Below, piece by piece: positions 2,032-26,721 of a stretch of 64,000 bases of DNA. Location of the stretch: positions 1 to 64,000 of the forward strand of contig JABUEY010000004.1 of the NCBI GenBank assembly GCA_013314815.1, read 5' to 3'. This DNA comes from Syntrophobacteraceae bacterium. Lineage in GTDB: Bacteria; Desulfobacterota; Syntrophobacteria; Syntrophobacterales; Syntrophobacteraceae. A program made the translations under genes and the position numbers. Within the stretch, counting starts at the first letter, position 1. Each line of letters opens with the position of its first letter. The notes under the pieces are model-generated. The model had not been told where the DNA came from. It did no database searches and saw only the letters and a program-made list of their open reading frames with translations.

Positions 2032-3509
2032 ACTCTCTCCTCCCTGCACGGCAGCGTGATGGTGAAGGTGGCTCCTCTACCGGGTCGAGACCGGAGATTC
2101 AACACCCCCTTGTGTTCCTCGATGATCCTGGCAGCTATGCTCAGCCCCAGGCCGGTGCCTTCCTCCTTCGTGCTGAAGAACGGCTGGAATACCTTCTCTC
2201 TCAGCACCTCTGGAATTCCCGGCCCGTTGTCACTCAACCGGATCACCGCCACGTGCCCCAGCGGCTCCGCCACGCCTTCTTCCTCGCGGATAAGGATCTT
2301 GCCGCCATCCCCGGTGGCCTCACACGCATTCACGATGAGATTGACAAAAACCTCCTTCAATTGCTCAGGATCCGCCTCGATCACCGGCAGCCGCCTCTGT
2401 CGTATAAGCTCCAGCGTAACACCGTAGGATTCCACCCGGTGGCGAAGAAGCTGAATGGCCATGTCCACGACATCCGAAGGGCTTATGGTCTGCATCTTCA
2501 GCTTGGGAGGACGGGAGAACTCGAGGAAATTCTGAACAATTGTGTCAATGTGCCGAATCTCGTCGGATATGACGTCGAAATCTTCTTTTTGAGTCGACGA
2601 CAGCTTCAGGGTACGTTCCATTGTAAAGAGCCGCATTTTCACTGACGTGAGAGGATTCCGGATGCTGTGGGCCACCCCCGCGGCCAGTTTGCCGACCATC
2701 GCGAGCTTCTCCGTCTGAAGAAGATGCTCCCGGCTTTGACGCAGCTGGATCTGAGCCACATCCGCGTCTTCGATCAGGTTGTGGACCCTGCGGCTGAGTT
2801 CGCCCACCTCGTCGGCTTCCTGAATCGAATCCCCGTTCGTCTTGACCTGCTCGGAAAGCTCGAGGATGGGTCGAAACAACCTGGTCACCAGAAGGTAGCC
2901 CAAGGCAGACAGGATCAGCAACGACAAGGGAAGGAAGAGCAGCACAAGCACAACGAAGGTTTGAGCCCTGCCCAGGAACGTTTGCCGCACCGTCGAGATG
3001 TCCCGGTAGTGCGTCTGCTTGTACTGTTCGCAAAGATCGCGAATGGCAAAGAAAGGGCTGCGAATCTCCCGCAGGAGCTGCAGTCCGGCTTCGCGGCTCC
3101 CTGATTTGTACAGGGTGATCACCTGGTCCCGGGCATGGCTGTAGCGAATGTACTTGGACTCGATTTCATAGAGTATCTCCAACTGTTCATCTGAGTGGGA
3201 TGCTTCCCTGGCCTTTTTCAGCCAGCGTTCGAACGCATACCTCTGTTGATCGAGCTGAGTCAGCCATTCTGCATCGCCGTCCACGAAATAATAGGTCAAG
3301 AGGCCTCTCTGCATGGCCAGGGAGCTCTCGAGCTCCTGGGCGACGTTGAGAGCACCCACATTCATGTCCAAAACCCCGGCGAAAGAGTCTGCCATTGTCC
3401 GGACAAGTTGCACGCTCCATATCCCCCCTGCGGCCAGGATGATCACAAGGCACCAGATCAGCAGGGAAAATCTTGTTTTGAGGCCGATCTTCTTCAACAT
3501 GTTTACCAT
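2016..3509 (-). CDS. Membrane sensor histidine kinase with HAMP domain
   Basis: The order is: first membrane helix (about residues 13-30), a periplasmic helical sensor of roughly 150 residues, a second helix (FVVLVLLFLPLSLLILSAL), HAMP, HisKA with the phospho-acceptor in VAHSIRNPL (about H281), and a HATPase domain with N box VNACEAT, DNGPGIP and TGLGLSIA. The usual HEIxNPL has become HSIRNPL, keeping the His and the NPL. The periplasmic part looks like a four-helix-bundle sensor and not a Cache domain. I take the ATG at 3509; another in-frame ATG is at 3500, and a longer frame to 3578 lacks a ribosome site. The gene overlaps the sigma-54 activator downstream, its probable partner. Confidence 0.92.
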   Translation of the reverse strand: MVNMLKKIGLKTRFSLLIWCLVIILAAGGIWSVQLVRTMADSFAGVLDMNVGALNVAQELESSLAMQRGLLTYYFVDGDAEWLTQLDQQRYAFERWLKKAREASHSDEQLEILYEIESKYIRYSHARDQVITLYKSGSREAGLQLLREIRSPFFAIRDLCEQYKQTHYRDISTVRQTFLGRAQTFVVLVLLFLPLSLLILSALGYLLVTRLFRPILELSEQVKTNGDSIQEADEVGELSRRVHNLIEDADVAQIQLRQSREHLLQTEKLAMVGKLAAGVAHSIRNPLTSVKMRLFTMERTLKLSSTQKEDFDVISDEIRHIDTIVQNFLEFSRPPKLKMQTISPSDVVDMAIQLLRHRVESYGVTLELIRQRRLPVIEADPEQLKEVFVNLIVNACEATGDGGKILIREEEGVAEPLGHVAVIRLSDNGPGIPEVLREKVFQPFFSTKEEGTGLGLSIAARIIEEHKGVLNLRSRPGRGATFTITLPCREERVWVRS

Positions 3510-3906
3510 GCCTGGACACCACCTGCCCGGGGCCGATTGGATCCCCGTTGAAATAGAGCGCGCCGTACACCCGGACACGCTAAAGCCCTACCATGGTCGT
3601 TGCCAAACACGATCCTGCCGGGAAAGTCCGGTTCATCGGGCAAAACGAGTACCTTCAATGCCTTCCACGCAAAGGATCGATGGCATCACAACCTCATTCG
3701 GCGTCACAACTGTCCGGGTACTCATTTGCCGGAAGACGGGGTTGCCCGACCGCTTACGAAGAACCGAAAGCCCGCGGCTCGGATCAAATCAGTATTCCAA
3801 ATGAAGCAAATTTTGTATAGTAATATCATAACGAATCAAGACAGTATTTCCATGAAGAGTCCACATCATACTCCTACGGGGATCGAGGAAGGAAACCAGG
3901 ACACGC
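3510..3906. other. Intergenic region between divergent genes
   Basis: It separates the minus-strand kinase from the plus-strand PEP-synthase-like gene. It holds a short copy of the dispersed inverted-end repeat (3630-3737) and an AT-rich stretch (3800-3850, with TATAGTAATATCATAA) that could contain a sigma-70 -10 element for the gene at 3907. I see no sigma-54 element. Confidence 0.45.
3630..3737. repeat. Short copy of dispersed inverted-end intergenic repeat
   Basis: The left end is GGTTCATCGGGCAAAAC and the right end ATTTGCCGGAAGAC, an imperfect inverted pair. Inside are AAGGATCGATGGCATC and ACTGTCCGGGTA, both shared with the longer copy at 58270-58689. It is about 108 bp and has no coding potential. 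Confidence 0.6.
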
Positions 3907-6519
3907 ATGCTAAGGTGGCTGAATTATTTCAGGTTCTGGAGGACGGGGAAACCGAAAGCTCCGGCACACGTCCTGACCGATCTTTTCCGGATGAAGCATG
4001 AACGCTTCAAGGAACTCCTCGATTCCAACGCCGAACTTTCCAAGATTATCGCGGATATGGAAGAAAAACTTCAGGGGCATGATATCTTCGGCATGTCCTA
4101 TGTACGCTCACAGTCGGCGCGAGCCGTCTTTCATACTCTTCGCATGATCAAGAGCCTCGACGAACTTTCGGGACGCAAGTATGGAAATCTCTACGGGGTA
4201 CTCGAAACTATAAATGAAACCATCAAATCGAATCTGGCCGAGCGCAAGCAGAACCCGCCCGAAGAATGGATACTTCCCTATTCCCGCATCACCAAGGAGA
4301 TGGTTGACTGGGTCGGCGGAAAGAGCGCCAACCTGGGGGAAGTGCTGAACGCCGTTGGTTTGCCCATCCCCGAGGGCTTTGCCATCACCACCCTGGCCTA
4401 CGATTATTTTATGAATTCCAACGATCTCGTCGACGAAATCAACAAGATCAAGATGGAAGTAGACCCCGACGATCCCCAGACGGTCAACTTTGTGAGCGAG
4501 GAAATCCAGCGCCGCATTATTTCTGCTCCCGTTCCACGGGACCTGGGGGACACCATACTGGCTGCCTACGACGAAATGATCGAAAGAATCCGACGCAGGG
4601 GAACGCAGGGTCTGAGCACCGAGATATCCATGAGGAGCAGCGCCATAGGGGAAGACAGCGAGCTCTCGTACGCCGGCCAGTACCTGTCCCTGCTGAATGT
4701 GCCCCGCGAGCGGATCGTCCACACCTACGGTTATATCCTCGCCAGTCTGTTCACGCCTCGAGCCATATCCTACCGGTTGAACAAGGGGATCCGCGATGAA
4801 GACATCGCCATGAGTGTGGCCTGTCTGCAGATGGTGAAGTCGGAAGCAAGCGGAATTGCCTATTCCCGTCATCCGTTCAACCTGTTGGACGACAACGTCA
4901 TCATCAGCGCGGTATGGGGCCTGGGACCCTACGCAGTGGACGGCGTCATCACGCCCGACAGCTACAAGGTTGCCAAGGACCCGGAGCGGACTATCCTCGA
5001 GAAACAGGTATCCCACAAACCCGTGCAACTGGTGAGCAATCCCGACGGGGGACTCATGGAGGTGCCGGTTCAGCGCGAGAAACAGGATGAATCCTGCCTT
5101 CCCGACGACCAGATCAGGCTTCTGGCCGATTATGCCATCCGGCTCGAAGAACACTACGGGCGTGCCCAGGACATGGAATGGGCTCGCGACCCGAATGGAC
5201 AACTCATGGTTCTGCAGACCCGCCCCCTGCACACTGGCAGCGAATCAGACCAGGGCCGTGCGCCGGCGATCCCTCTGCTCACCCGGTATCCCCTGCTCCT
5301 GGAAGGCGGATCCATCGCGTTTCCTGGTGTGGGCTTCGGAAAGGCCTACCATGTAAGAACCGAAGACGACCTGCTCGCTTTCCCGGAAGGGGGCATCCTT
5401 GTAGCCAAACATGCCTCCCCCAAGTATGTCGTGGTCATGCGGAAGGCTCAGGCCATCCTTACGGACTTCGGAAGTGCAACCGGGCACATGGCCTCCGTTG
5501 CCCGGGAATTCGGAGTGCCCACCATTCTGGATACCAGGAAGGCCACAGAATCGGTTCCCCAGGGAGAAACGGTGACGGTCGACGCGTATTCCGGAAGGGT
5601 TTACCAGGGGGAGGTCAGTGAACTGCTCAGTCTCAAGGCCGTTCGGGAAGCCTGTATGAAAGAGACTCCCGTCTATGAAGCACTCCAGCGCATCACCGCC
5701 TCCATCGTTCCACTCAATCTCATCGATCCCAAATCTCCCCGGTTTGCCGCCGAGTACTGCGAAACGCTTCATGACATCATGCGGTTGGTGCACGAATTCT
5801 CCTACCATGAAATGTTCCAGATCAGCGACCTGGTGTCCGATGACGGCGGCTGCGCAGTGAAACTCGATGCCCCCATCCCACTCGACCTGTATATCATCGA
5901 TCTGGGAGGAGGACTCGCCACCGAGGTCGCGGGCTGCGGGAAAGTGAAGGTGGAGGAGGTCGTTTCCATCCCCTTTTCCGCCGTCCTCAGGGGAATGCTC
6001 CACGAGGACCTGCGCTATCACAGGCCTCGGCCTATTGAACTCAAGGGCTTCTTCTCCGTCATGACCGAGCAGATGTTCACTCCCGCCTATTCGGGAGCTG
6101 AAAGGTTCGGAGACCGCAGCTACGCCATCATCTCGGACAAGTACCTCAATTTCAGCTCCAGGGTGGGCTATCACTACAGTGTCCTGGACTCCTACTGCGG
6201 CCGGACCGTGAACAAGAACTACATTACCTTCTCTTTCAAAGGCGGGGCCGCCGACGACGTCCGGCGCAACAGGAGAGCTCGAGCCATAGCGCAGGTGCTT
6301 GAATCCCTCGACTTCGTGGTTGAAGTTGTGGCGGACAGGGTCGACGGCAAGTTCCAGAAGTTCGAACAGCCGATCATTGAAGAGAAGCTGGACATGATCG
6401 GAAGGCTGCTCCAGTTTACCCGGCAGCTGGACATGCTCATGAACAGCGAAACGACCGTCGCAGCCATCGCCAAAGCGTTTCTGAGCGGCAACTACCACCT
6501 GGAGGAAGAGGTGTTTTGA
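3907..6519 (+). CDS. PEP-synthase-like protein with ATP-grasp and phospho-His domains and a novel C-terminus (paralogue A)
   Basis: The 870 residues begin with a helical extension (1-115). An ATP-grasp domain like the N-terminal half of PEP synthase/pyruvate phosphate dikinase follows, with MRSSAIGEDSELSYAGQ near residue 241 and QDMEWARDPNGQLMVLQTRP near 421. A swivelling phosphohistidine domain has its catalytic His in SATGHMASVAREFGVP (H527). The PEP-binding barrel expected next is absent. About 290 residues of unfamiliar sequence replace it, with PLDLYIIDLGGGL, YAIISDKYLNFSSRVGYH and a basic RRNRRARAIA. The protein could phosphorylate its swivel His from ATP, but the acceptor is unknown. 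The paralogue at 11810-14482 shares the whole layout. Start at the ATG 3907 with AGGA 5 nt upstream; an ATG at 3991 is possible. Confidence 0.88.
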   Translation: MLRWLNYFRFWRTGKPKAPAHVLTDLFRMKHERFKELLDSNAELSKIIADMEEKLQGHDIFGMSYVRSQSARAVFHTLRMIKSLDELSGRKYGNLYGVLETINETIKSNLAERKQNPPEEWILPYSRITKEMVDWVGGKSANLGEVLNAVGLPIPEGFAITTLAYDYFMNSNDLVDEINKIKMEVDPDDPQTVNFVSEEIQRRIISAPVPRDLGDTILAAYDEMIERIRRRGTQGLSTEISMRSSAIGEDSELSYAGQYLSLLNVPRERIVHTYGYILASLFTPRAISYRLNKGIRDEDIAMSVACLQMVKSEASGIAYSRHPFNLLDDNVIISAVWGLGPYAVDGVITPDSYKVAKDPERTILEKQVSHKPVQLVSNPDGGLMEVPVQREKQDESCLPDDQIRLLADYAIRLEEHYGRAQDMEWARDPNGQLMVLQTRPLHTGSESDQGRAPAIPLLTRYPLLLEGGSIAFPGVGFGKAYHVRTEDDLLAFPEGGILVAKHASPKYVVVMRKAQAILTDFGSATGHMASVAREFGVPTILDTRKATESVPQGETVTVDAYSGRVYQGEVSELLSLKAVREACMKETPVYEALQRITASIVPLNLIDPKSPRFAAEYCETLHDIMRLVHEFSYHEMFQISDLVSDDGGCAVKLDAPIPLDLYIIDLGGGLATEVAGCGKVKVEEVVSIPFSAVLRGMLHEDLRYHRPRPIELKGFFSVMTEQMFTPAYSGAERFGDRSYAIISDKYLNFSSRVGYHYSVLDSYCGRTVNKNYITFSFKGGAADDVRRNRRARAIAQVLESLDFVVEVVADRVDGKFQKFEQPIIEEKLDMIGRLLQFTRQLDMLMNSETTVAAIAKAFLSGNYHLEEEVF

Positions 6520-8077: not shown

Positions 8078-8092
8078 TGGCACAAATGTTGC
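8078..8092 (+). promoter_or_regulatory. Perfect sigma-54 (-24/-12) promoter of the TauE operon
   Basis: TGGCAC, five bases (AAATG), TTGC: an exact RpoN element. Transcription would start near 8103 and leave a leader of about 350 nt before the first gene at 8455. It is the plus-strand counterpart of the element at 336-350. Confidence 0.82.
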
Positions 8093-8454
8093 TGCTTCTA
8101 TAGTGCCAAATGCGCAGACATCCTGACTGTTTTCTGAGAAACACAGGGCTGGCGGTGAAATACGGCGGCGATCCGGGGGACGGGCAAGGAACGGATCACG
8201 GGCAAGTGTCTCCTTTCCGTTGACACTGCTCGGCTGCCCCCTCGACCCGTCCCGGCGGTTCCGCCGGGTGATTCTGATTGGAAGGAGGTGATGGAAACGA
8301 AAGGAAGCGAAGTGGAGGAGGTGTATTGCCCCGATGCGACAATCCGACACGAACGGGAGGTGATTCGAAGCGAGCTCGATTCAGGACCATGTAGATTGTT
8401 CTTCAAGTGAATTGTCGCAATAGCTTCACGAGACCATGAAGGGAGGTTATTTGC
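8093..8454 (+). other. Long leader of the sigma-54-driven TauE operon
   Basis: About 350 nt lie between the sigma-54 start and the first gene. I see no open frame with a ribosome site and no riboswitch class I recognise. The stretch around 8228-8270 (CGACCCGTCCCGGCGG followed by TTCCGCCGGG) can fold into a GC-rich hairpin. A good Shine-Dalgarno (GGGAGG) precedes the ATG at 8455. Confidence 0.4.
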
Positions 8455-9009
8455 ATGTCTGCAGAACAAAGAAAAAGCGGTGCGTTTAAGTTTACATTCT
8501 GGACGTTTTTGGCATTACTCTTAATATATTATGCCTGGCATTCCTACAGTTCGGGACAAATGATCAACTGGTATTACTGGGAAGCGGCCGCTGACGGTTA
8601 CGCCGTCAACGCCAACACCTTCAAGGAAGCAACCAAGGAGAAGCCCATGATCCTTGAAATCGGCCCTCACGCCGAGATCACCGGGCTTCAGGCGGTGCCC
8701 GTAAAGAAGGGGGAGAGGCTGCCCATAGGTTGCAACGGGATTATCAGCAAGAAGGAACTCGAAGAAGGCAAGCGAGTCAAGCTCGAAGACGACAGGATCG
8801 TGGTGATGGTTCCCATGCAGGTCAAGGAAGCGAAGGGGTTCAAGTACAAGGACACGTACAAGCACAAGGGCATCAAGACCAATCCGTGGTCGGGGGCGTG
8901 GAATGTCGCCTGGGTGCTTGCGCTGGGTGTGTGCCTCGGATACAGCGCCGAGGGATTCACCGACCTTTTCGGCCTCAAACTGAAGAAGATCGAACATTAC
9001 GGTCATTAG
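8455..9009 (+). CDS. Unknown two-helix membrane protein, first gene of the TauE operon
   Basis: The 184 residues have one membrane helix near the N-terminus (about 12-31), a soluble central part of roughly 110 residues rich in Lys and Glu, and a second helix near 145-165 (WNVAWVLALGVCLGYS). With the start inside, the middle would lie in the periplasm. I do not recognise the family. GGGAGG stands 8 nt before the ATG. It is the first gene after a perfect sigma-54 promoter and directly precedes the TauE/SafE permease, so it probably belongs to that transport unit as an accessory or sensing subunit. That role is inferred from position only. Confidence 0.85.
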   Translation: MSAEQRKSGAFKFTFWTFLALLLIYYAWHSYSSGQMINWYYWEAAADGYAVNANTFKEATKEKPMILEIGPHAEITGLQAVPVKKGERLPIGCNGIISKKELEEGKRVKLEDDRIVVMVPMQVKEAKGFKYKDTYKHKGIKTNPWSGAWNVAWVLALGVCLGYSAEGFTDLFGLKLKKIEHYGH

Positions 9010-9045
9010 GATCCATCAGCTGAAATTCCAGTAGAGGAGTTGATC

Positions 9046-10113
9046 ATGTTTGATTTTGCAATAGCGGGAGTACAAAGCCCTTTTATGCTGTTAGTGCTTA
9101 CCGGGTTTACCGTGGGTATTGTCGGCGGGTTTATCGGTGTCGGCGGCGGCTACATGGTGACCCCTGCTCTCATCGTGTTCGGTTTTCCGGGCTACATGGC
9201 TTCAGGCATCGATATGACGCATATCGCAGGTAAATCGGTCATTGCCACCGTTCGGCACAGGCAGATGGGAAACATCGACTGGGTCCTGGGCCTGGCCATG
9301 GTCGGAGGCACCATGCTCGGCGTGGAACTTGGCGTAAGGCTTCTGAACTGGGCCAAGAAGCTCGGCATCGCCGGCATCCTGCTTCTTACCTGCTCCGTCG
9401 TGGTCATGCTGTGCCTGTTCATCTACACACAAATCGAGACCCAGAAGGCTCACAAGAAGATCGAAAAGGACGCCGAAGCAGGCATCACTGCGGGGCGTGA
9501 AGTCATGGTCAGCGGCATCCCGAGGTTTTTCCAGAGCATTCCCCTGTATCCCATCGTCCGCTGCCGTACGGCCCGCCTGGTCATATCCATGTGGGTGATC
9601 GTGCTTGTCGGCATCTGCACCGGGACACTCGCGGGATTCCTGGGAGTCGGCGGAGGATTTGTGCGTGTGCCGGCGCTCGTTTACGTCATCGGCGCCACAA
9701 CCCACATCGCCGTGGGCACCGACCTCCTGGAGATCGCCGTTTCCGGTGGTTACGGAGCCATGAGACACACCCAGATGGGCAACGTGGACATGATCGCGGT
9801 CATGTTCATGATCGTGGGCGCCATGGTGGGCGCACAGTTCGGCAGCATCGCTACATCCTTTGTGCGCGGCCCCGCCATCCGGTACATACTCAGTTATTCC
9901 CTTATCCTCGCCACCGTGGGCGCCTGCCTGCGGCTCATCTACATGCTCACCGGCCAGAAGTACGAGGTGCTCTCCTTCTTCGCGGTGGTCTTCACCCTGG
10001 GCGAGATGTTCTTCCTGTGCTTCTTTATCGTCAGTCTTGTGGTATTCGCCGTGCGGTACCGGCACGGCAAGTCGGTCCCTGCGTGGATCCCCGCGCTGGT
10101 AGTCAAGGATTAG
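9046..10113 (+). CDS. TauE/SafE-family anion permease
   Basis: This 355-residue multi-spanning protein shows the two-fold repeat of the family: VGIVGGFIGVGGGYMVTPAL in the first half and TLAGFLGVGGGFVRVPAL in the second, each followed by a THIA(G/V)-type stretch (DMTHIAGKS; TTHIAVGTD). Members export small anions such as sulfite, sulfoacetate or other organosulfur compounds; the substrate here is not readable. The ATG at 9046 has GAGGAG 6 nt upstream; a TTG at 9040 is less likely. It sits in a sigma-54-driven operon between an unknown membrane protein and two very small ones. It is closely similar to the permease at 19590-20669. Confidence 0.93.
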   Translation: MFDFAIAGVQSPFMLLVLTGFTVGIVGGFIGVGGGYMVTPALIVFGFPGYMASGIDMTHIAGKSVIATVRHRQMGNIDWVLGLAMVGGTMLGVELGVRLLNWAKKLGIAGILLLTCSVVVMLCLFIYTQIETQKAHKKIEKDAEAGITAGREVMVSGIPRFFQSIPLYPIVRCRTARLVISMWVIVLVGICTGTLAGFLGVGGGFVRVPALVYVIGATTHIAVGTDLLEIAVSGGYGAMRHTQMGNVDMIAVMFMIVGAMVGAQFGSIATSFVRGPAIRYILSYSLILATVGACLRLIYMLTGQKYEVLSFFAVVFTLGEMFFLCFFIVSLVVFAVRYRHGKSVPAWIPALVVKD

Positions 10114-10148
10114 CCTGTTTACTCTTGTGGTTAAAGGAGGTATGAAAA

Positions 10149-10256
10149 ATGAAGTGGCTTTGGGACTCCATGCTTGGCTACTGGCTCCTGCTGCTTTCCA
10201 TCTCTCTTGGCATTGCGGCGGCAATCTACATGATATGGCTCCGTGGGCTCATATAA
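10149..10256 (+). CDS. 35-residue single-helix membrane peptide
   Basis: ATG at 10149 to TAA at 10254-10256, beginning MKWLWDSMLGYWLLLLSISL and ending in a short basic tail (IWLRGLI). AAAGGAGG precedes it, and another AAAGGAGG begins right at its stop codon to serve the next gene. One membrane helix fills most of the peptide. It lies 35 nt behind the permease, so it is probably a small subunit or regulator of it. An ATG at 10142 opens a different, implausible frame. Confidence 0.75.
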   Translation: MKWLWDSMLGYWLLLLSISLGIAAAIYMIWLRGLI

Positions 10257-10268
10257 AGGAGGAAGACC

Positions 10269-10460
10269 ATGCAAATTCTTGCCAACCTCATTCTATATGG
10301 TTTCATGCTTTTCCTGGTATATGAATCCATATTCGTCGAACACGATCCGTTTTTTGCCTTCGTGGTCCTGTTCGTGATCGGAGTGGCTGTCATTACCACG
10401 CTGTTGCCGGGTCTTCATGCTTCGAGGACCTCGCCTGGCGAATACCCTTACGATGACTGA
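10269..10460 (+). CDS. 63-residue two-helix membrane protein
   Basis: This small hydrophobic protein has helices at about 3-18 and 28-47 and a short polar tail rich in Pro and Tyr (SPGEYPYDD). AAAGGAGG stands 7 nt before the ATG. Its stop overlaps the next start (TGATG), so it is coupled to the 221-residue gene downstream. I do not recognise the family. As a tiny membrane protein behind a TauE permease it may be an accessory subunit. Confidence 0.82.
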   Translation: MQILANLILYGFMLFLVYESIFVEHDPFFAFVVLFVIGVAVITTLLPGLHASRTSPGEYPYDD

Positions 10461-11125
10461 TGACCGGTGAGATCATGACGACGGACCTGGGTGCGCTGCG
10501 CAAGGAAATTATCAATCTGTACGATAAGCGCAAGATAGGTGACCTGACGGAAAGAAAATTCCAGTCCCGGCTTGCGGACAAGACGGTGGAGCTGTATCGG
10601 ACGATCGTGATGGGCAGAATGGCTGAAGGAGAGACGATCCAGATGGAACACCATACGATTCTCTCCCATCTCAAGCTGACCCAGTCCATCCTGAGGGAAC
10701 CCGAGCAGTTCGCCACCAGTCTATTCGCTACGGACCGGCGCCTGTTTCGCGTACGTGCGACATTGATTCTGAGTATTCCACCAACGGGCGACCACAGGGA
10801 CAAGACCGTGGTGGACGAACTTTCCTACAAGCGCATCGCGTCTCTCAAGGTCCGCCGTCAGGTCAGGTGGGGTGAAGCGTATGTCGGCGCCGCCTTTGCC
10901 GGCGGGGCCGCCATCTTCTCCCCCTGGCTCGACATGACCGGCCCCGTGTTGATTGGAATCGGATCTCTGGGCATCATCCACGCCTTCCTTCTTCCGACCC
11001 GCTGGGTCGAAGTGGTGCCCGAGAATCCGATTCCCGACATGGATCCGATGAACATCCATGTGTTGCGAAAGAAGAGTGCCCGGGCCCTGGTGCAGTTCCT
11101 CCAGCAGAAATTGAGCCGATCATGA
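10460..11125 (+). CDS. Unknown membrane-associated protein of the TauE operon
   Basis: The 221 residues start with a helical, charged domain (1-75, with a LRKEIINLYDKRK stretch). A beta-rich part with an ATDRRLFRVRATL pattern follows (about 90-105), recalling bacterial PH-like or short PilZ-adjacent folds, and then two membrane helices (about 138-152 and 155-172). I cannot name the family. It is coupled by TGATG to the gene before and by ATGA to the receiver gene after it. A protein partner of that receiver is a reasonable guess. Confidence 0.82.
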   Translation: MTGEIMTTDLGALRKEIINLYDKRKIGDLTERKFQSRLADKTVELYRTIVMGRMAEGETIQMEHHTILSHLKLTQSILREPEQFATSLFATDRRLFRVRATLILSIPPTGDHRDKTVVDELSYKRIASLKVRRQVRWGEAYVGAAFAGGAAIFSPWLDMTGPVLIGIGSLGIIHAFLLPTRWVEVVPENPIPDMDPMNIHVLRKKSARALVQFLQQKLSRS

Positions 11126-11520
11126 AAGGAATAAAGGTCCTTCTCGTAGACGACGAAGTCGACTTTACGACAAGTATGCGCAAGGTCCTGGCTCGACGCG
11201 GATTTGAAGTGGACGTTGCCTCCGACGGCCTCTCCGCCCTCCCCATGATTGCCCAGACACATTTTGACGTGGTGGTTCTCGACATCAAAATGCCCGGCAT
11301 GGACGGGATCACCGTGCTTTCGGAAATCAAGCGGCTCACTCCATCCACCCAGGTGATCATGCTCACCGGGCACTTTTCCTTCAGCGACGAGGTGGACGCA
11401 TCGCAAACCGGAGCTTTTGCGTACCTGCTGAAACCCATTCCCATCATGAAACTTGTCGATATCATACTCGCCGCCGCGGTTCACGGCAGAACGGTCGCGC
11501 TGAAAGGCGCAGGCCCCTGA
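11122..11520 (+). CDS. Stand-alone receiver-domain response regulator
   Basis: A single CheY-like receiver of 132 residues with acidic pocket VDDE (D10, D11), phospho-acceptor D54 in VVLDIKMPG, the Thr of MLTGH and the Lys of LLKP. There is no output domain. Its ATG overlaps the preceding stop (ATGA). Receivers of this type act by protein contact, so it may signal to the membrane proteins of its own operon or to the PEP-synthase-like protein encoded next. Confidence 0.92.
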   Translation: MKGIKVLLVDDEVDFTTSMRKVLARRGFEVDVASDGLSALPMIAQTHFDVVVLDIKMPGMDGITVLSEIKRLTPSTQVIMLTGHFSFSDEVDASQTGAFAYLLKPIPIMKLVDIILAAAVHGRTVALKGAGP

Positions 11521-11809: not shown

Positions 11810-14482
11810 ATGGATTCCGTCAATTCGACTTCTTCCGAGGGAACCGAAGCCCGCCCGTGGTATCGAAAGGCCATGTCCAGGACGTGGAATGGTTTCAAGT
11901 ACTTCCTGGAACTCATAGGGATTCTGCAGGGACAGGCTGTGGACCAGGCGGCCCAGGTAGCCAGGTTGAGGCTTTATCACACGGAGTTTCGCAAGCTTCT
12001 TTCGTCGAACAACAGCTTCCTGGAAAACCTGGGAGATCTGGAGCAGAAGCTATACAGCAGCGAACTGGTGGACCGGGCGTTCGTCAAGCGCAAGGTCGTG
12101 AGGATCCTGACCGATATTCATGCTATGGTGGAAAGCATCAATGTTATTTCGGGCGATCGCTATACTGCGCTGCGCGAATCCTTCGACCGGATAGCGGAAC
12201 CCCTCGGCACACTGATGGAGGAATCCACGGAATCCGCCGGCAGCCAACGGGTTCTTGATCTTTCCGAAGTGAGCGCGGCACATGCCGAACTGGCCGGGGG
12301 CAAGATGGCGAACCTGAGCGAGGTCGCCAACGTGCTCGGCCTTCCGACTCCGGACGGCATGGTGATCACAACGGAAGGATTCCGGGAGCTTGTCGAAAAG
12401 GGAGGCATACGATCCTGGATCCAGGACAAGCATCTCGAAATCGAATCCCCGCACGACATAGACCGGATCAGTGAGGAGCTGCGAGACCGCATTTTGGATC
12501 TAGAAGTCCCCTCCGAACTCCAGGAAGAGATTCTCGCCGGCTACGACCGCCTGGCGGAGCGCGCCGGAAAACCTGTGCCCGTTGCCGTGCGATCCAGTGC
12601 CGTGGGCGAAGATTCCGATTTTTCCTTTGCGGGCCAGTTCCTATCCGTTTTAAACGTGCGTAGAGAGGATCTCGCCGGTGCGTACTTGCGAGTCGCGGCA
12701 AGCCTTTATTCCACAGAGGCCATGTATTACAGGTTCCTGCACGCAATACCCGGAGAATCTGCTCAGATGGCTGTAGGATGCATAGAAATGGTCGATGCGG
12801 CAGCGAGCGGAGTGGTCTTTTCCAGGGATCCGAATCGGCCCGATTCCGGAAAAGTGCTGATCCATGCCATCAAGGGGCTCGGCGTCATGCTTGTGGACGG
12901 CCGTACCTCCCCGGAGGTGATACAGGTTTCAAGAGACCCGCTCGGGGCCGAGGTGGATCGGAGCCCTTCTTCTCAGAAAAGCCGAATCGTCCTGGCGGGA
13001 GGATCCGGTGTCGAGGAGAAGGATTTGCAGCCGGGGGAAGCCGGGCAGCCCTGCATCTCCGACGACCAGGCGGTGCAGCTCGCCGGATGGGCTCTGCAAC
13101 TCGAGGCTCATTTTGGGAGCACACAGGATGTGGAATGGGCGCTCGATCATGAAGGCAGGCTTATTGTTCTGCAGTCGAGGCCTCTGGCCTTGTCCGCGCA
13201 TTCCACCCGCACGGAAGAACCTGTTACAGGCTTTCCGCTTCTCGTGCGGGGGGGCGAGGTCGGATGCCCGGGCATCGGGATCGGCCCGGCAAAGCATATG
13301 TCCGAAGACGACGACATGGAAACCTTCCCGGACGGTGCCGTGCTGGTGGCGAGAAGGTCATCACCCAGGTTCGTCCGGCTGATGTCGAGAGCCACGGCCA
13401 TCGTGACCGATGCAGGAAGCACCACCGGCCACATGGCCTCGCTTGCCCGCGAATTGAGGGTCCCCACCCTGCTCAACACGAGGTCGGCGGTCCAGTCGAT
13501 CCCCGATGGAACCCTCATCACCGTGGACGCGAGCAGTGGATTCGTCTACGAAGGAGAGGTTCCCGCCCTGGCCGAGAAACAGGCGGCCGCCGCGGAGGAA
13601 GGAGACTTTTCGGAAAGAAGGAAACTGACTCCAGGGTACCGTCTCCTGGCAAAGGTGGTGGAAAACATCGCGCCTCTCCATCTCACCGATCCTGCAGCGG
13701 CGAATTTTACCGCCCAGGGGTGCCTGACCCTGCACGACATGGCACGCTATATCCATGAAAAGTCCTACAAGGAAATGTTCATGCTGGGAAACAACGTCGG
13801 AGACCTTCGCGCATCCAGCTATTACCTCGATGTGTTCCTCCCCATCGATCTGTATATCATCGATCTCGGCGGGGGACTTGAAGGGAGCCCGAAGCAGAAA
13901 AAAGTAAAGCGATCCCAGGTGACCTCTGTGCCCCTCAAGGCGGTCCTGGATGGAATGCTTCACAAGAAGATCCAGCGTTTCGGTGCTCGACCCATGGACC
14001 TCGGGGGGCTTTTCTCCATTATGATGCGGCATGCCATGACCAGCCCCGAAGAAGATGAATCCTTCAGGGCTCCCTGCTATGCCATCATCTCGGACAAGTA
14101 CCTGAACTACACCGCAAGAGTGGGTTATCACTTCAGCGTACTCGATACCTACTGCGGGGAGACACCCAACAAGAACTACATCAGCATGGTCTTCCAGGGG
14201 GGGGCGGCGGATTTCGTGCGAAGGAGCCGCAGGGCCAGGGCTATCGCAAGCATTCTCAAGGAGCACGGCTTTACCGTGAAGGTCCACAACGATATCGTCA
14301 ATGCGCGTCTCAGCAAGGCTCCCCTGCAGGAAAGCGTGGCTCACCTGCAGATGCTGGGTTCCCTGTTTCAGTTCTTCCGTCAGATGGATGCGGCCATGAC
14401 CAGCGAAAACGCCGTCTCGTTGTACGCGGAAGCATTTCTGGATGGTGATTACGCGCTGGAGAGATTCAAGAGCGGTAACTAA
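11810..14482 (+). CDS. PEP-synthase-like protein with ATP-grasp and phospho-His domains and a novel C-terminus (paralogue B)
   Basis: The 890 residues follow the plan of the protein at 3907-6519: a helical N-terminal extension (about 1-150), an ATP-grasp domain with VRSSAVGEDSDFSFAGQ near residue 265 and QDVEWALDHEGRLIVLQSRP near 440, and a swivel domain with its phospho-acceptor in STTGHMASLARELRVP (H541). The same unfamiliar C-terminal domain (about 595-890) carries PIDLYIIDLGGGL, YAIISDKYLNYTARVGYH and RRSRRARAIA. The PEP-binding barrel is again missing. The start has only a weak ribosome site (GAGCGAAG). A gap of 289 nt separates it from the receiver gene; it may have its own promoter or belong to the TauE transcript. 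Confidence 0.88.
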   Translation: MDSVNSTSSEGTEARPWYRKAMSRTWNGFKYFLELIGILQGQAVDQAAQVARLRLYHTEFRKLLSSNNSFLENLGDLEQKLYSSELVDRAFVKRKVVRILTDIHAMVESINVISGDRYTALRESFDRIAEPLGTLMEESTESAGSQRVLDLSEVSAAHAELAGGKMANLSEVANVLGLPTPDGMVITTEGFRELVEKGGIRSWIQDKHLEIESPHDIDRISEELRDRILDLEVPSELQEEILAGYDRLAERAGKPVPVAVRSSAVGEDSDFSFAGQFLSVLNVRREDLAGAYLRVAASLYSTEAMYYRFLHAIPGESAQMAVGCIEMVDAAASGVVFSRDPNRPDSGKVLIHAIKGLGVMLVDGRTSPEVIQVSRDPLGAEVDRSPSSQKSRIVLAGGSGVEEKDLQPGEAGQPCISDDQAVQLAGWALQLEAHFGSTQDVEWALDHEGRLIVLQSRPLALSAHSTRTEEPVTGFPLLVRGGEVGCPGIGIGPAKHMSEDDDMETFPDGAVLVARRSSPRFVRLMSRATAIVTDAGSTTGHMASLARELRVPTLLNTRSAVQSIPDGTLITVDASSGFVYEGEVPALAEKQAAAAEEGDFSERRKLTPGYRLLAKVVENIAPLHLTDPAAANFTAQGCLTLHDMARYIHEKSYKEMFMLGNNVGDLRASSYYLDVFLPIDLYIIDLGGGLEGSPKQKKVKRSQVTSVPLKAVLDGMLHKKIQRFGARPMDLGGLFSIMMRHAMTSPEEDESFRAPCYAIISDKYLNYTARVGYHFSVLDTYCGETPNKNYISMVFQGGAADFVRRSRRARAIASILKEHGFTVKVHNDIVNARLSKAPLQESVAHLQMLGSLFQFFRQMDAAMTSENAVSLYAEAFLDGDYALERFKSGN

Positions 14483-14487
14483 GAGCT

Positions 14488-14835
14488 GGCTCTTCCGGCA
14501 AACTTCCACGGGCCGTGGGCTCACAACCCACTATGAAAACGCACAAGAAACCTTTTAGCGGCTGATCTCTTAAAAACGGGCCGGACCATTCCGGCATTTT
14601 ACGGCATTTGCGGGAATGACGCTGTGGAGGCAATGACGTTGCTGCGGGAATGACGGTGTGGTCCAGGCGGGCATGAACAGGTGTGGTCTACGTGGGAATG
14701 ATGTTGCTGTGCGAGTGAGACATTGTTGTGGGAATGACGTTGTGATGCCGAGTGACTTTGTGATGCCTTGATCCTTTCCGTGGAAAGCACGAGACGCGTG
14801 GGAAACACGGGAGTTTCTCGTTTGCCGGATGAGCT
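14488..14835. repeat. Dispersed inverted-end intergenic repeat
   Basis: The ends are GGCTCTTCCGGCAAAC (14488-14503) and GTTTGCCGGATGAGCT (14820-14835), inverted with two mismatches. The interior carries an irregular tandem series of a roughly 12-base word of the type GGGAATGACGTTG and, on the minus strand, AAGGATCAAGGCATC shared with other copies. It fills the gap between two convergent genes and abuts the stop codon of the receiver gene. Confidence 0.7.
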
Positions 14836-15236
14836 TAAAACTTGTCTTCCAGGTCGAGGACGCAGCATTTTCTCTCGAACGCGTTTTCAATGCAGGAGAC
14901 GAGCGTCTCGACCGGGCATGGTTTGAGCAGAATTTCCGCCACACAGTACTTAAGCGCCTCGGACACCTGCTTCATATCGATGTGTCCTGTCAGCATGATC
15001 ACGGGAACGACGGTATCCTTTTCGCGGATGGCCTTGAGTGTTTCAATGCCGTCCATTCCCGGCATGCGCAAATCCAGGACCATCACGTCGTAGCTTCCCT
15101 CTTCGAGCAGCTTCAGGGCATCGGACCCGTTGTCCACGCTTTCCACCTCCATTCCACGCCTGCGAAGGACCTTCTTGAGCGATTCGACAAACATCTGCTC
15201 GTCGTCTACCAGCAAAACACGCATGAGTTCAGACAT
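14835..15236 (-). CDS. Stand-alone receiver-domain response regulator
   Basis: A 133-residue receiver with VDDE (D11, D12), phospho-acceptor D55 in MVLDLRMPG and MLTGH. The fifth helix entry is CVAEILLKP in place of the usual GAxDYLLKP, so the output face may differ. There is no effector domain. It is last in a minus-strand series behind a kinase and another receiver, separated from the latter by about 160 nt. A second ATG (15224) could be used. Confidence 0.9.
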   Translation of the reverse strand: MSELMRVLLVDDEQMFVESLKKVLRRRGMEVESVDNGSDALKLLEEGSYDVMVLDLRMPGMDGIETLKAIREKDTVVPVIMLTGHIDMKQVSEALKYCVAEILLKPCPVETLVSCIENAFERKCCVLDLEDKF

Positions 15237-15393
15237 GTCTGTTTATCCTGCAAGAAAACGGTCTTGACATTTCCTGGCCTCTTTGATCTTCGTTTCATCC
15301 CGGTTTTCAAGATCGAGTATATCAGGAGGATCCCGTTTTTGAAAGCACCTGAAGAAGCTGAAGTGATTTTCCGGCAGGATAACGGACACGCCT

Positions 15394-15804
15394 CTACCTC
15401 TGCATGTTCTGCAGCCTGATCTTCTTTCTTTGATAAGCCTCCGCGATCTTTTCCTGCAGTTCTTCTATCCGAATGGGTTTCATGGCGTAATCGAAAGCTC
15501 CGTGGTGCATCCCCTCGATACCCGTCTCAACGGAACCGTGTCCGGTCAGGATGATCACTTCGACCATCGGTTTCTTTCTCTTGATGATCTTCAGAGCCTC
15601 GATGCCCCCCATGCCGGGCATCTTCAGATCGAGGACAACCACATCGAATTCGCTTTCCTCGACGGCACTCACAGCAGCCTCACCGCTGTCGGCCGTGGAG
15701 ACTCGAAACCCCCTCCTGACGAGCAGTTTGGACATATTCCTGGTAAATGCCTCCTCGTCGTCCACCAGCAGGATCCTTATCCCGGGTTCATCCAGCGACA
15801 TCAT
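15394..15804 (-). CDS. Stand-alone receiver-domain response regulator, coupled to a kinase gene
   Basis: A 136-residue receiver with VDDEE (D15, D16), phospho-acceptor D59 in VVLDLKMPG, ILTGHGS and YAMKP. There is no output domain. Its start lies inside the 3' end of the kinase gene (17-nt overlap), so it is the probable direct phosphorylation partner of that kinase. Confidence 0.92.
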   Translation of the reverse strand: MMSLDEPGIRILLVDDEEAFTRNMSKLLVRRGFRVSTADSGEAAVSAVEESEFDVVVLDLKMPGMGGIEALKIIKRKKPMVEVIILTGHGSVETGIEGMHHGAFDYAMKPIRIEELQEKIAEAYQRKKIRLQNMQR

Positions 15805-17560
15805 ATGGGCTGTCCTCGAAGTCCTTTGCCGTTCTGAAAGGAAGAAAAATCGTGAACTCAGTGCCCTTCCCCATTTCGCTCCGAACCGTAATGTTGCCTC
15901 CCAGGGATTTCACGATGGTGTAGGAAATGGAAAGCCCCAGGCCAGTCCCCTTTCCAACCGGCTTCGTGGTAAAGAACGGGTCGAATATTCTCTTGAGGTT
16001 CTCCTGCGAAATGCCCGACCCCGTATCGGAAATATTGATCTCTATGCCCTGCTTTCTGCTGTTCAGGCGGCTGTTGATCCGTATGGTCCCGTAGGGCTTC
16101 CCTTCGTGGGCATCTATGGAATTGGATATGAAGTTGATGAGTACCTGTTCGAGTTGAAAAGGATCCGAAAGGAGACGAGGCAGGTCGTTTTCCAGGTCCA
16201 CAATGAACTGAATCCCGCTGGTCTGCGCCCTTTTTTCCAGCAGTTCGATCACTTCTTCGCAGCACTTGTTGATATCCACCATCTCGATCTTCGACTTGGA
16301 TCGACGCGAGAAGCGCAGCAGGTTCTGAGTGATGTGACTGCACCGCTGCACCTGTGCTTCGATCTGGCTCAGGGACTCGAAGAGCTGACCCTTGAAATCC
16401 CCGTCAAGCGATGTGGCCTCCTCCCCCAGGTCCCGGATGACCTGGTTTTCGGTCAGGATGACGGACAGCGGGTTGTTGATCTCGTGGGCAACGCCGGCGG
16501 CAAGTTCTCCTATGGATGCCAGTTTGCTCGCCTGGAGCAGTTGCATGCTGAGCCGTTCCTCCTCCTCGTCCCGCTTCTGGATCACCTTGATCATGTGACG
16601 CGTGGTGAGGATGGCTACAACAAGGATGGCCAGGATACTCACGTGCAGGAAAATGAGAATGGCGTGATTGGCATGGTTGACGGCCCTGAACGCTTCATCG
16701 TAGTCCTGTTTGACTCCAAGCAGCCAGCGGGGCTTCTTGAGCCAGGCGTAAGCGATGATCTGTTTCGGCAGAGGCCGGTCGAGGTCGTCTTTTCCCCCTT
16801 CGAGAATATGGATTCCGCTTTCCTCCGTGAATACATCCATCCGGAATGGGGCGCTGCCCATGATCTTGCCGCTGTATCGAGGTGCGGTCTGAAAGACTCC
16901 CTCCTTGTTGAGAAGGTAGACCTCCCCCGTCTCGCCGATCTTCACGTCCTCTACGAGTGAGCGCATGTAATCGGTGTAAACCGTTGCCCTCAGGATCCAT
17001 TTCTGATTTTCGTCGGATCGCAGAACGGCAATGATAAAGTGGGGAACGCTGCGATATCCCATGAACATGTCGCTGATGTAGACGCCTCTTTCCATCACCC
17101 TCTTGAACCAGAAGGTTTCCGAATAATCCTTGTCCATCAAGTCGTAAGGCCCCACATAGGACACGTGTCTACCCCGGTCGTCGATGACTCCGATGTCCGT
17201 AAAAAAGACTTCTTCGCGGTTCAACGTATTGAATACGCGATTCAGATTGGATGTGTCTCGAAGGTGTTCGAGAGAATGGGTGAATGCGGTCAACTGGAGA
17301 TCGGCGGTGCGTTCCTTGAGAAACAGTTCCACGATCTTGCGATGATATTCGGTGAGGTTCTGAAAGTAATCGACCATCCTCGCCGTCGCGAACTCGGAAT
17401 AATAGGTATAGATGCCCCAGCCCACCAGGATGAGAGGAAAAACCGAACAGATCAGCGTAAGAAGAATAAATCTCCTGTAAAGCTCGGCATATGTTTCTTT
17501 CTTCGTGGCACCGGCGGACTTCCGATAGGACCCGCTCTTGATATCCCCATTCGAATTCAT
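15788..17560 (-). CDS. Sensor histidine kinase with periplasmic Cache-type domain
   Basis: The 590 residues comprise a cytoplasmic start, membrane helix 1 (about 30-54), a large periplasmic double-Cache-like sensor (about 60-300), membrane helix 2 (FLHVSILAILVVAILTT), HisKA with [10 protein letters not shown] (H359) and HATPase with NFISNSIDA, DTGSGI and GTGLGLSI. The sensor has a DIGVIDDRGRHVSYVGPY stretch also found, with small changes, in the kinase at 28177-29850, so the two probably bind related ligands. The ATG at 17560 is the only reasonable start. It is coupled to the receiver at 15394-15804. Confidence 0.94.
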   Translation of the reverse strand: MNSNGDIKSGSYRKSAGATKKETYAELYRRFILLTLICSVFPLILVGWGIYTYYSEFATARMVDYFQNLTEYHRKIVELFLKERTADLQLTAFTHSLEHLRDTSNLNRVFNTLNREEVFFTDIGVIDDRGRHVSYVGPYDLMDKDYSETFWFKRVMERGVYISDMFMGYRSVPHFIIAVLRSDENQKWILRATVYTDYMRSLVEDVKIGETGEVYLLNKEGVFQTAPRYSGKIMGSAPFRMDVFTEESGIHILEGGKDDLDRPLPKQIIAYAWLKKPRWLLGVKQDYDEAFRAVNHANHAILIFLHVSILAILVVAILTTRHMIKVIQKRDEEEERLSMQLLQASKLASIGELAAGVAHEINNPLSVILTENQVIRDLGEEATSLDGDFKGQLFESLSQIEAQVQRCSHITQNLLRFSRRSKSKIEMVDINKCCEEVIELLEKRAQTSGIQFIVDLENDLPRLLSDPFQLEQVLINFISNSIDAHEGKPYGTIRINSRLNSRKQGIEINISDTGSGISQENLKRIFDPFFTTKPVGKGTGLGLSISYTIVKSLGGNITVRSEMGKGTEFTIFLPFRTAKDFEDSPYDVAG

Positions 17561-17715: not shown

Positions 17716-18504
17716 CTATTCGAGTATTCTTACGATAAATCCAGGTCTTACAGAGTAATCCCGGTCAACGATGGCAAGCCCGTCTTTTTGTGACACCCTC
17801 AAAACCTGGACGGTGGTCACGGGCGTGCCCCTGTCATCCAGCAGAGACACTCGGCTTCCCGGCTCCAGCCCGTGATCTTTGCCGAATCCGAAGCAGATTT
17901 CATGGCCCTCGTCGACGATTCTCACCAGGTATACTTCCGCCATGCCCTTACCGGCCATAGCCGTTTCCCGCTTATGGGACACCATGAATACCATGAGCAG
18001 TGTACTCAATGTAAGCAGAAACGAAGCCGCTGATGTCCGCCAGGGCGAGACATTTACAAATCGCTGGAGCACCGACATGGAATCCTTCCGAAGGGCAGCC
18101 GGGTCCTCATAGACTTTGACCAGAAATGCAGCAAAGGGCTTTTGAGCTTCGTTCTTCCCGGAAATGACGACAATGGCATAATCACCCGGCCTGATCGTCG
18201 GATCGACGGATAATTCACCGCGCCACATTTGCCCACCCAGCCAGAACCCGGTGTGAACAGCGTCGAATCTCAGGATGATCTGTTCAGAATTACTGATATA
18301 GCCGAGATCCGCAACGTCCCTTGGTTCATTGTCCAGGGGGCCGTTCACCATGACCGAATCCCCGCCGAGCAGTTGAAGGACGTTCGTCGCCTGCCTGAAC
18401 CGTGACTGCAGGCCGTCGATCGTCGCGATGACAAAGAGAATGCAGAAGGCTGCGCAGGCCTTGCCGAGCAGACTCCGAATGCTGTTGAGCCGTTCGATGC
18501 TCAT
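17716..18504 (-). CDS. Unknown two-helix membrane protein with periplasmic domain
   Basis: I take the ATG at 18504, which overlaps the stop of the 69-residue gene upstream (ATGA), giving 262 residues; a longer frame to 18789 only runs through that gene. One helix lies near residue 10-28. A periplasmic domain follows to about 150, a second helix lies near 158-176 (LLTLSTLLMVFMVS), and a cytoplasmic beta-rich tail contains GLEPGSRVSLLDDRGTPV and a final YSVRPGFIVR. The tail resembles the SH3-like C-terminus of FlgT-type proteins. No function can be assigned. It sits between a TauE operon and a kinase-receiver pair. Confidence 0.82.
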   Translation of the reverse strand: MSIERLNSIRSLLGKACAAFCILFVIATIDGLQSRFRQATNVLQLLGGDSVMVNGPLDNEPRDVADLGYISNSEQIILRFDAVHTGFWLGGQMWRGELSVDPTIRPGDYAIVVISGKNEAQKPFAAFLVKVYEDPAALRKDSMSVLQRFVNVSPWRTSAASFLLTLSTLLMVFMVSHKRETAMAGKGMAEVYLVRIVDEGHEICFGFGKDHGLEPGSRVSLLDDRGTPVTTVQVLRVSQKDGLAIVDRDYSVRPGFIVRILE

Positions 18505-18710
18505 GTCTCGGATGGGTGTTCCTCCGATCGGTATCTTCTGACCAGAAACCTGGCCAGAAGAAGCGTTGGAATCAGCATTCCGAAGAAGTACTTGAAAAAC
18601 ACCAGAGTGAATTCCTCGGGGTGCCGGTTTGCCACGTAAATGCTCACGAACAGCTCGGCCAGCACCAGGATATCCACGAAGGCTATAACCACCTTTTGTC
18701 GAGAATTCAT
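18501..18710 (-). CDS. 69-residue two-helix membrane protein
   Basis: A small hydrophobic protein (helices about 7-25 and 34-54) with a basic, charged tail (RFLVRRYRSEEHPS). It overlaps the next gene by the ATGA arrangement, so the two proteins are made together. The ribosome site is weak. I do not recognise the family. Confidence 0.75.
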   Translation of the reverse strand: MNSRQKVVIAFVDILVLAELFVSIYVANRHPEEFTLVFFKYFFGMLIPTLLLARFLVRRYRSEEHPSET

Positions 18711-19553: not shown

Positions 19554-19589
19554 ATTCTTCAACCTCGTCTTGTCCGGTTTGTAACGGAA

Positions 19590-26719: not shown

Positions 26720-26721
26720 GT

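Follow-up and report, generated by a model that had tools for sequence, protein, structure and literature searches.

A TauE-type permease operon that recurs across bacterial phyla with its own stand-alone receiver and a PPDK-like enzyme

To our knowledge, no members of the TSUP permease family (PF01925; TauE, SafE and CysZ types) have been described together with a receiver and a PPDK-like enzyme, except in one cluster of Desulfovibrio. Stand-alone receivers without a known target are common, and the single-domain response regulators of the CheY/Spo0F type, which act without DNA binding, serve chemotaxis or relay. The Desulfovibrio "nitrate cluster" (DVU0251-DVU0245 and Dde_0597-0605) was the only such cluster that we found described in the open-access literature searched (PMC4001038). 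It encodes a TauE permease, a hypothetical protein, a histidine kinase, a receiver-only protein and an enzyme with PPDK_N and PEP-utilizer mobile domains, along with a PtxB-like periplasmic protein, a DUF169 protein (G20 only) and a phosphatase. Transposon mutants of D. vulgaris in DVU0251 (TauE), DVU0250, DVU0247 (receiver only) and DVU0246 (PPDK-like) grew unhindered at 100 mM nitrate, and the authors proposed that the cluster encodes a leaky thiosulfate transporter (PMC4001038). Polar effects of the insertions on the downstream PPDK gene are possible.

We analyzed a 64,000-nucleotide stretch of a Syntrophobacteraceae genome (hereafter, the window), for which a sequence-only reading had proposed a six-gene operon. 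Every reading frame of that set is present: A184, TauE1, pep35, p63, p221 and RR1 are co-directional genes at 8455-11520 on the plus strand. The unit had been drawn as ending at RR1, leaving out PPDKb, the next gene on that strand, whose place there is conserved. The features of the locus are:

NtrC484, 595..2049, minus strand: sigma-54 activator that adjoins the operon in many relatives
HK520, 2016..3578, minus strand: kinase paired with NtrC484
PPDKa, 3907..6519, plus strand: PPDKb paralogue upstream of the operon
Predicted sigma-54 type -24/-12 promoter, 8078..8093, plus strand: TGGCAC-N5-TTGCT, no mismatch
A184, 8455..9009, plus strand: membrane protein whose terminal helices flank a soluble domain resembling MoeA domain II
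TauE1, 9046..10113, plus strand: TSUP-family permease, 355 aa
pep35, 10149..10256, plus strand: 35-residue one-helix membrane peptide
p63, 10269..10460, plus strand: 63-residue membrane protein
p221, 10460..11125, plus strand: helical N-terminus and possible PH/GRAM-like barrel with an inserted membrane hairpin; alternative start at 10475
RR1, 11122..11520, plus strand: stand-alone receiver without an output domain
PPDKb, 11810..14482, plus strand: PEP-synthase-like protein with ATP-grasp and phosphohistidine domains, in which an orphan C-terminal domain replaces the PEP/pyruvate barrel
RR2, 14835..15236, minus strand: lone receiver with its own clade
RR3, 15394..15804, minus strand: lone receiver with its own clade
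HK590, 15788..17560, minus strand: dCache histidine kinase, candidate kinase for RR1, RR2 and RR3

The genes had been read as joined by overlaps, which holds for p63/p221 (1 nt) and p221/RR1 (4 nt), but the other three of the five junctions are gaps (A184/TauE1, 36 nt; TauE1/pep35, 35 nt; pep35/p63, 12 nt). The two shortest frames are genuine genes, since each was recovered at the same position in 12 further loci and each shows an excess of substitutions at the third codon position (0.37/0.22/0.56 by codon position for pep35, 13 sequences; 0.43/0.31/0.65 for p63, 11 sequences). Relatives are 51-71% identical to the window sequence for pep35 and 54-68% for p63 (13 sequences each), and hydropathy gives both a membrane character.

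TauE1 belongs to the TSUP family by profile (PF01925, E 3.9e-38, 131.9 bits against a curated cut-off of 32.6), and its counterparts in 10 other loci are 73-85% identical to the window protein. Two other profile matches, of TauE1 to MamO (NCBIfam, E 4e-4) and of p63 to FtsX (0.045), were taken as weak membrane-protein similarity. A184 had been called a two-helix protein; its structural model does contain two terminal helices, but no segment exceeds the hydropathy threshold. Pfam MoeA_N matches 10/10 A184 members (best 6.2e-7), with the window protein scoring below the curated cut-off, and the soluble domain has the fold of MoeA domain II (Z 12.1, 86 residues, 2.0 A). The molybdopterin-binding and C-terminal domains of MoeA are absent from A184, whose 184 aa contain the domain-II stretch only.

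For p221, the suggested helix pair appears in the model (residues 137-152 and 160-177), but only one hydropathy segment exceeds the threshold and the second is weak. In a second structural comparison its modelled fold, interrupted by the membrane hairpin, gave Z 9.7 with MTMR2 and Z 8.9 with the DUF1696 bacterial PH domain, but Foldseek returned no match at E 0.001 or better. Because several orthologues begin at the residue matching the in-frame ATG at 10475, this may be the true start, giving 216 aa. Searching genome contigs with the single p221 sequence produced 29 pattern matches, none of them confirmed, and the relatives' loci were recovered instead by a contig search with the TauE1 alignment. 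The neighbourhood loci comprise those returned by searches, the window and its paralogue; L039, L043, L044, L046, L052 and L055, and later L201 (identical to L040), were dropped as duplicates, judged by the length and content of their contigs.

The order A184-TauE1-pep35-p63-p221-RR1-PPDKb recurs in Desulfobacterota, Acidobacteria, Myxococcales and one Poribacteria bin, with a variant in Chloroflexi. Conservation of gene order, proposed earlier as a check on the operon, thus extends across phyla. Two archaeal bins (L065 and L066) encode TauE1-like permeases without any detected partner. Among 147 relatives, dsrA scored above the cut-off in 88 (G011, with a split dsrA, was counted as lacking it); the gene was present in 11/13 operon-bearing genomes versus 77/134 others, a difference that was not significant (p 0.076). 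The paralogous operon, L033, retains TauE and the receiver, and lacks p221 and, within 20 kb, a PPDK-like gene. Its proteins are 85% (TauE1), 72% (A184), 69% (pep35) and 68% (p63) identical to those of the window, and the receiver is the most diverged (59%). Within the same 20 kb we detected no orthologues of HK590, RR2 or RR3, the single RR2-like match being 30% identical.

RR1 is a single-domain response regulator: its 132 aa comprise a receiver only, and D10, D11, D54 and K104 are invariant in 11/11 aligned sequences. Like CheY and Spo0F it is receiver-only, but it is tied to a transport operon. It forms its own clade of 21 sequences (support 0.805), of which a core of 15 sequences is supported at 0.976. 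A search of 297 genomes with the RR1 profile gave 10 matches of at least 164 bits, in 9 genomes, all in TauE1 operons (one of these operons being split across two contigs), while the next three matches (148.9, 148.1 and 142.3 bits) lie elsewhere, in clusters of the HK590/RR3/PPDKa type. The description of RR1 as a dedicated receiver is therefore borne out; receiver genes linked at random to many operons, the pattern that would speak against it, were not seen.

The position of RR1 points the same way. Among the 31 readable loci (those where sequence beyond p221 could be read), RR1 lies downstream of p221 in 21. The two genes overlap in all 15 loci where they are adjacent, by exactly 4 nt in 12, with start codons picked near the window's alignment start. 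In the remaining six, the two are separated by a kinase gene, and RR1 lies right next to PPDKb, at a spacing of -22 to +19 nt. The slot after p221 holds no RR1 in 9/31 loci, and at locus L060 neither a receiver nor a kinase was detected within 21 kb, so the putative switch is either dispensable or encoded elsewhere. These absences would fit genes that are simply co-inherited and co-expressed, the receiver and the permease being functionally unconnected. We consider this extremely improbable, given the lack of strong RR1 matches outside TauE1 operons in the 297 genomes, the conservation of the p221/RR1 overlap across families, and 20 control regions from single-contig genomes that do not show the association.

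The p221/RR1 overlap, together with L033, where TauE and the receiver persist with no PPDK-like gene, would also suit the simpler version offered by the sequence-only reading, in which TauE1/p221 is gated by RR1 itself and PPDKb plays no part in this. That version appears very unlikely to us, as PPDKb is present in nearly every operon readable that far and the pairing of PPDK-like enzyme and receiver is itself the wider pattern.

PPDKb shares its ATP-grasp and phosphohistidine domains with PEP synthase and PPDK; residues 148-614, the His among them, can be aligned with PEP synthases of solved structure. It differs from them in an added N-terminal helical domain of ~130 residues and an orphan C-terminus of ~280 residues. 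The C-terminal domain matched no barrel family or any other family, its profile found no solved structure below E 0.4, and plasmid records contained no relative. Since the C-terminal PEP/pyruvate barrel is missing, we did not file PPDKb as a PEP synthase. An HPt/DHp docking role for the N-terminal domain was considered and dropped, as neither Pfam nor PDB sequence profiles supported it.

PPDK-like enzymes with the orphan C-terminus occur in 86/147 related genomes. A same-strand receiver is directly adjacent to 44/81 PPDK-like genes, compared with 11/1000 random anchors. In 10 single-contig genomes that encode such enzymes, 16/25 of the genes have a TauE gene no more than 10 kb away; 5000 random draws gave a mean of 1.1 and never more than 6. 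TauE, a PPDK-like enzyme and a lone receiver thus form a recurrent module. The PPDK sets inspected were hand-picked (20 + 20 among the matches listed) rather than randomly drawn. One class, L131-L150 (TauE-PF09608-PPDK-receiver), has the same three core proteins plus a membrane-anchored accessory, but this accessory is Alph_Pro_TM instead of A184 (two scanned), the receiver comes after PPDK, and the receiver clade is separate.

The generality of the receiver-PPDK pairing, its occurrence with no TauE within 20 kb at L112, L120 and L125, and the PEP-synthase regions retained in PPDKb favor an explanation in which RR1 controls PPDKb only and the permease is ungated; PPDKb would then be a metabolic phosphotransferase whose substrate is the cargo or some metabolite. 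We regard this as possible but rather unlikely: RR1 is coupled to p221 rather than to PPDKb in 15/21 loci, RR1-PPDKb spacing reaches 475 nt, and the L033 receiver persists where no PPDK-like gene is nearby.

Transcription appears to be served by other components. The operon is preceded by its own -24/-12 element, predicted from sequence, with an enhancer-binding activator nearby, the hallmarks of a sigma-54 operon. A perfect site occurs in 8/31 upstream regions versus 12/1240 random windows, and a site with at most one mismatch in 16/31 versus 34/1240. As this separate site and the NtrC/kinase pair would handle transcription, RR1 probably has another role, and a non-transcriptional one is more likely. 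Lone receivers often act as sinks or relays, and HK590, RR3 and RR2 adjoin the operon in many loci; RR1 might accordingly drain off or pass on phosphate among HK590, RR3, RR2 and HK520/NtrC484, a network that ends in transcription. This seems to us quite unlikely, because gene overlap ties RR1 to p221, not to a kinase, in those same 15/21 loci, and because L033 keeps its receiver with no HK590, RR2 or RR3 orthologue in 20 kb.

The reading that we prefer, to which we give about an even chance, is a single transport complex switched by phosphorylation through RR1, p221 and PPDKb, with separate sigma-54 control of transcription. TauE1 would be the permease, and A184, pep35 and p63 small accessory subunits of one membrane complex. 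Transcription would be under NtrC484 with its kinase HK520, while a post-translational branch would be made up of RR1, p221 as a membrane protein with a possible PH-like fold, and PPDKb as a phosphohistidine enzyme. HK590 is the likely kinase for RR1, its place probably being taken in other lineages by a homologue whose gene immediately precedes that of RR1. Once phosphorylated, RR1 would bind p221 at the membrane, PPDKb or both, and this would turn the permease complex on. The earlier proposal of receiver control of transport by phosphorylation is thus upheld in part: the phosphorylation residues are intact and a non-transcriptional role is the likelier one, but RR1 is not indispensable. Counting against our preferred reading are the loci without RR1 after p221, among them L060, the L033 operon with TauE and receiver but neither p221 nor a nearby PPDK-like gene, and the weakness of the dsrA association.

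By annotation and gene order only, the operon is of the nitrate-cluster kind, in which a barrel-less PPDK-like enzyme is encoded alongside TauE, a histidine kinase and a receiver-only protein; on the same basis, the Desulfovibrio order TauE ... kinase-receiver-PPDK is that of L056, L057 and L059. The annotation of the Desulfovibrio PPDK-like enzyme, as in PPDKb, includes no PEP/pyruvate barrel. The cluster's description makes no mention of p221, pep35 or p63. The label "exporter" had been taken from the family name, and we do not keep it: the genetics of the like-ordered Desulfovibrio cluster suggests uptake. We favor oxyanion uptake over export; thiosulfate and sulfite are examples of the probable kind of cargo.

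That an operon travels with its own receiver and phosphate-transferring enzyme across distant bacteria suggests a transporter switched by phosphorylation, beyond on/off control of its genes. Direct control of a transporter by a stand-alone receiver would be unusual, and the module offers a concrete case. It also supplies a partner for the orphan-C-terminus PPDK-like family, which is easily mislabelled as PEP synthase. A broader proposal, which we think unlikely, is that receiver and barrel-less PPDK-like enzyme act as a switch or phosphoryl donor energising or gating TSUP permeases as a general, unrecognised class. If true, such permeases would take up oxyanions by means of an ATP-driven phosphorelay resembling the PTS. 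The system would extend over Desulfobacterota and further phyla, its membrane accessories (A184, PF09608) would be exchangeable, and it would explain the nitrate-sensitivity locus of Desulfovibrio. The module bears on why sulfate reducers turn nitrate resistant on losing such genes, which is relevant where soured oil fields are treated with nitrate (PMC4001038).

All six genes that the sequence-only reading had assigned to an operon at 8455-11520 were found on the plus strand: A184, the permease gene TauE1, pep35, p63, p221, and RR1, a stand-alone receiver. The genes had been described as joined by overlaps, which holds for the last two junctions (1 and 4 nt); the others are gaps of 36, 35, and 12 nt. 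The main features are as follows.

595-3578, NtrC-type activator and kinase, near the operon
3907-6519, PPDKa, PPDK_N and PEP-utilizer domains (Pfam), upstream of the operon
8078-8093, perfect sigma-54 -24/-12 element
9046-10113, plus, TauE1, TauE/TSUP family (Pfam 3.9e-38)
11122-11520, plus, RR1, receiver domain alone (Pfam 1.5e-29)
11810-14482, PPDKb, PPDK_N and PEP-utilizer domains (Pfam), downstream of the operon
14835-17560, kinase and two lone receivers, near the operon
18942-21345, minus, second TauE operon: DUF4881 protein, TauE2, protein of ~99 aa

Pfam gave no family for pep35 or p221, and an A184 match to MoeA_N lay under the cut-off. The soluble part of A184 resembles MoeA domain II, with a Pfam match in 10/10 members (best 6.2e-7); its structure model (pLDDT 83) matched this domain in Foldseek (2.0e-6) and aligned to it with a Z of 12.1 over 86 residues (2.0 A, 33% identity). 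The p221 model (pLDDT 85) looks PH/GRAM-like, with a membrane hairpin ahead of the last strands, and a second look gave the highest Z to MTMR2 (9.7) and 8.9 to bacterial DUF1696. Because Foldseek returned no match for the model at E 0.001, we consider this predicted fold likely and not certain. PPDKb residues 148-614 align to solved PEP synthases, with the catalytic His at the matching position; neither its C-terminal 280 nor its N-terminal 130 residues matched a family or a solved structure.

Elsewhere in the window, the ~99-aa protein of the second TauE operon likely has a later start inside 20725-21345. A 357-aa protein without a Pfam family (p357; 17716-18789, minus) has homologues adjoining DUF4881 in three loci (L028, L042, L045), and in L028 and L042 homologues of TauE2, DUF4881, and p357 share one cluster. 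A further dense signalling patch (24859-29850) holds an NtrC-type activator plus two lone receivers that alternate with two kinases on the minus strand (receiver-kinase-receiver-kinase). A MoeA protein fused to a periplasmic-binding-like domain (PF12727) lies beside a radical SAM protein (30905-32896 and 29949-30944, both minus), ~20 kb from A184, which itself bears the MoeA domain-II-like part.

Conservation of gene order had been set as a check on the operon, and the unit is real: A184-TauE1-pep35-p63-p221-(RR1)-PPDKb recurs across the compared loci, drawn from fetched neighbourhoods and titled MAGs (31 returned by the search). The MAG record titles include Desulfobacteraceae, Syntrophobacteraceae, Acidobacteria, Bryobacteraceae, Myxococcales, Chloroflexi, and a Poribacteria bin. 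Among 147 related genomes, p221 is present in 13 and the A184 profile matches in 11, one match being weak and one fragmentary. Identity to the window is 73-85% for TauE1, 44-67% for RR1, and 39-55% for p221 (10 aligned loci each), and 58-72% for A184 (9 loci); substitutions in pep35 and p63 are of coding type. The HK590-RR3-RR2 module (dCache histidine kinase and two lone receivers) and the HK520-NtrC484 kinase-activator pair vary in placement, on either side or either strand of the operon. Two archaeal bins (L065, L066) encode TauE1-like permeases of 50-51% identity, and the other operon genes were not detected flanking them.

The receiver, too, belongs to the transport operon. In a tree of 188 receivers drawn from the compared loci, the 21 RR1 sequences, and no others, form one branch (support 0.805, with 0.976 for a subset of 15), separate from RR2 (14, 0.811), RR3 (12, 0.937), and PPDK35-class receivers (15, 0.989); the "fused" label on some RR1 is an artefact of stop-to-stop frames, in which the open frame runs upstream. 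Across 297 genomes of the phylum, 10 matches to the RR1 profile, from 9 genomes, reach 164 bits or more. Matches at loci already in the comparison lie inside TauE1 operons, as does the match in G213 (same contig as L040); in G146, kinase-RR1-PPDKb opens a contig and fits another that ends TauE1-pep35-p63-p221-kinase. The matches that rank next (148.9, 148.1, and 142.3 bits) are receivers of the RR3 type that sit next to HK590-like and PPDKa-like genes. In 11/11 aligned RR1, the acidic pair, the phospho-Asp, and the Lys are retained. RR1 is present in 21 of the 31 loci that can be read past p221; one (L063) carries another receiver, and nine carry none (L026, L031, L047, L050, L051, L053, L054, L058, L060). 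The slot lacks the receiver in roughly one locus in three. A different receiver directly precedes A184 in L050, L051, and L054, and none was detected within 21 kb in L060.

The association extends to a more widespread module. Of 147 relatives, 86 encode the C-terminal domain of PPDKb, with up to 12 matches per genome. Regions around 20 matches of ~40-50% identity held TauE in 13 and a lone receiver in 11 (Fisher p against controls 1.3e-5 and 0.006), those around 20 matches of ~33-41% held each in 19 (3e-10 and 6e-8), and 20 control regions held 0 and 2. In ten single-contig genomes, TauE lay within 10 kb of 16/25 PPDK-like genes (random mean 1.1, maximum 6). A same-strand receiver directly adjoins 44/81 PPDK-like genes (20/33, 6/26, and 18/22 by set), as against 11/1000 random anchors. 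In the ~33-41% class, TauE is usually followed by a membrane-anchored protein (assigned to PF09608 in both proteins scanned), then by PPDK and the receiver. L131-L150 share the recurrent arrangement of TauE, PF09608 where scanned, a PPDK-like gene, and a lone receiver, and some of these loci have neighbours that, from their sequence, we take to be universal-stress-like proteins.

A Desulfovibrio cluster, "poorly annotated" in its published description, yields nitrate resistance when hit (PMC4001038). As given there, it comprises DVU0251 (TauE), DVU0250, DVU0249 (PtxB), DVU0248 (a kinase annotated as a pseudogene), DVU0247 (receiver only), and DVU0246 (PPDK_N and a mobile domain, with no PEP/pyruvate barrel in Table 3). 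Its order, TauE...kinase-receiver-PPDK, is that of L056, L057, and L059, a likeness of annotation and gene order. Isolated transposon mutants in 0246, 0247, 0250, and 0251 are described as growing equally with and without 100 mM nitrate, and the 0245 mutant as showing no such equal growth; pooled data for 0250 (-5.82) conflict with the isolated mutant, and preliminary data gave little effect for 0248 (PMC4001038). By our own inference, the insertions are possibly polar on DVU0246. Leaky thiosulfate uptake is the explanation put forward by the authors, who cite mild thiosulfate defects as unpublished (PMC4001038), and TSUP proteins of other sulfate reducers are discussed as sulfate transporters (PMC5840216) and as a sulfite importer (PMC3949148). 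The sequence-only reading had cast TauE1 as an exporter; we rate uptake the more likely direction.

Perfect sigma-54 sites occur in 8/31 upstream regions (700 nt) as compared with 12/1240 random windows from the same loci, and sites with at most one mismatch in 16/31 as compared with 34/1240. With an NtrC-type activator close by, transcription would already have a regulator, and we infer that an extra lone receiver is more easily explained by a non-transcriptional role. In 15/21 loci, RR1 directly follows p221, and the two genes overlap in every such locus, the overlap being exactly 4 nt in 12. In the remaining six, a kinase, sometimes accompanied by a second receiver, stands between them, and RR1 and PPDKb lie -22 to +19 nt apart; this distance reaches 475 nt elsewhere and is 289 nt in the window. 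The genome that holds the window also carries a paralogous operon, A184-TauE1-pep35-p63-RR1 (L033, contig C219, 8435-11087), which has no p221, and no PPDK-like gene was found in the 20 kb covered there. RR1 is its least similar gene (59%, as against 68-85% for the others), which, in this single case, would fit loss of a partner. The switch probably involves p221 and PPDKb.
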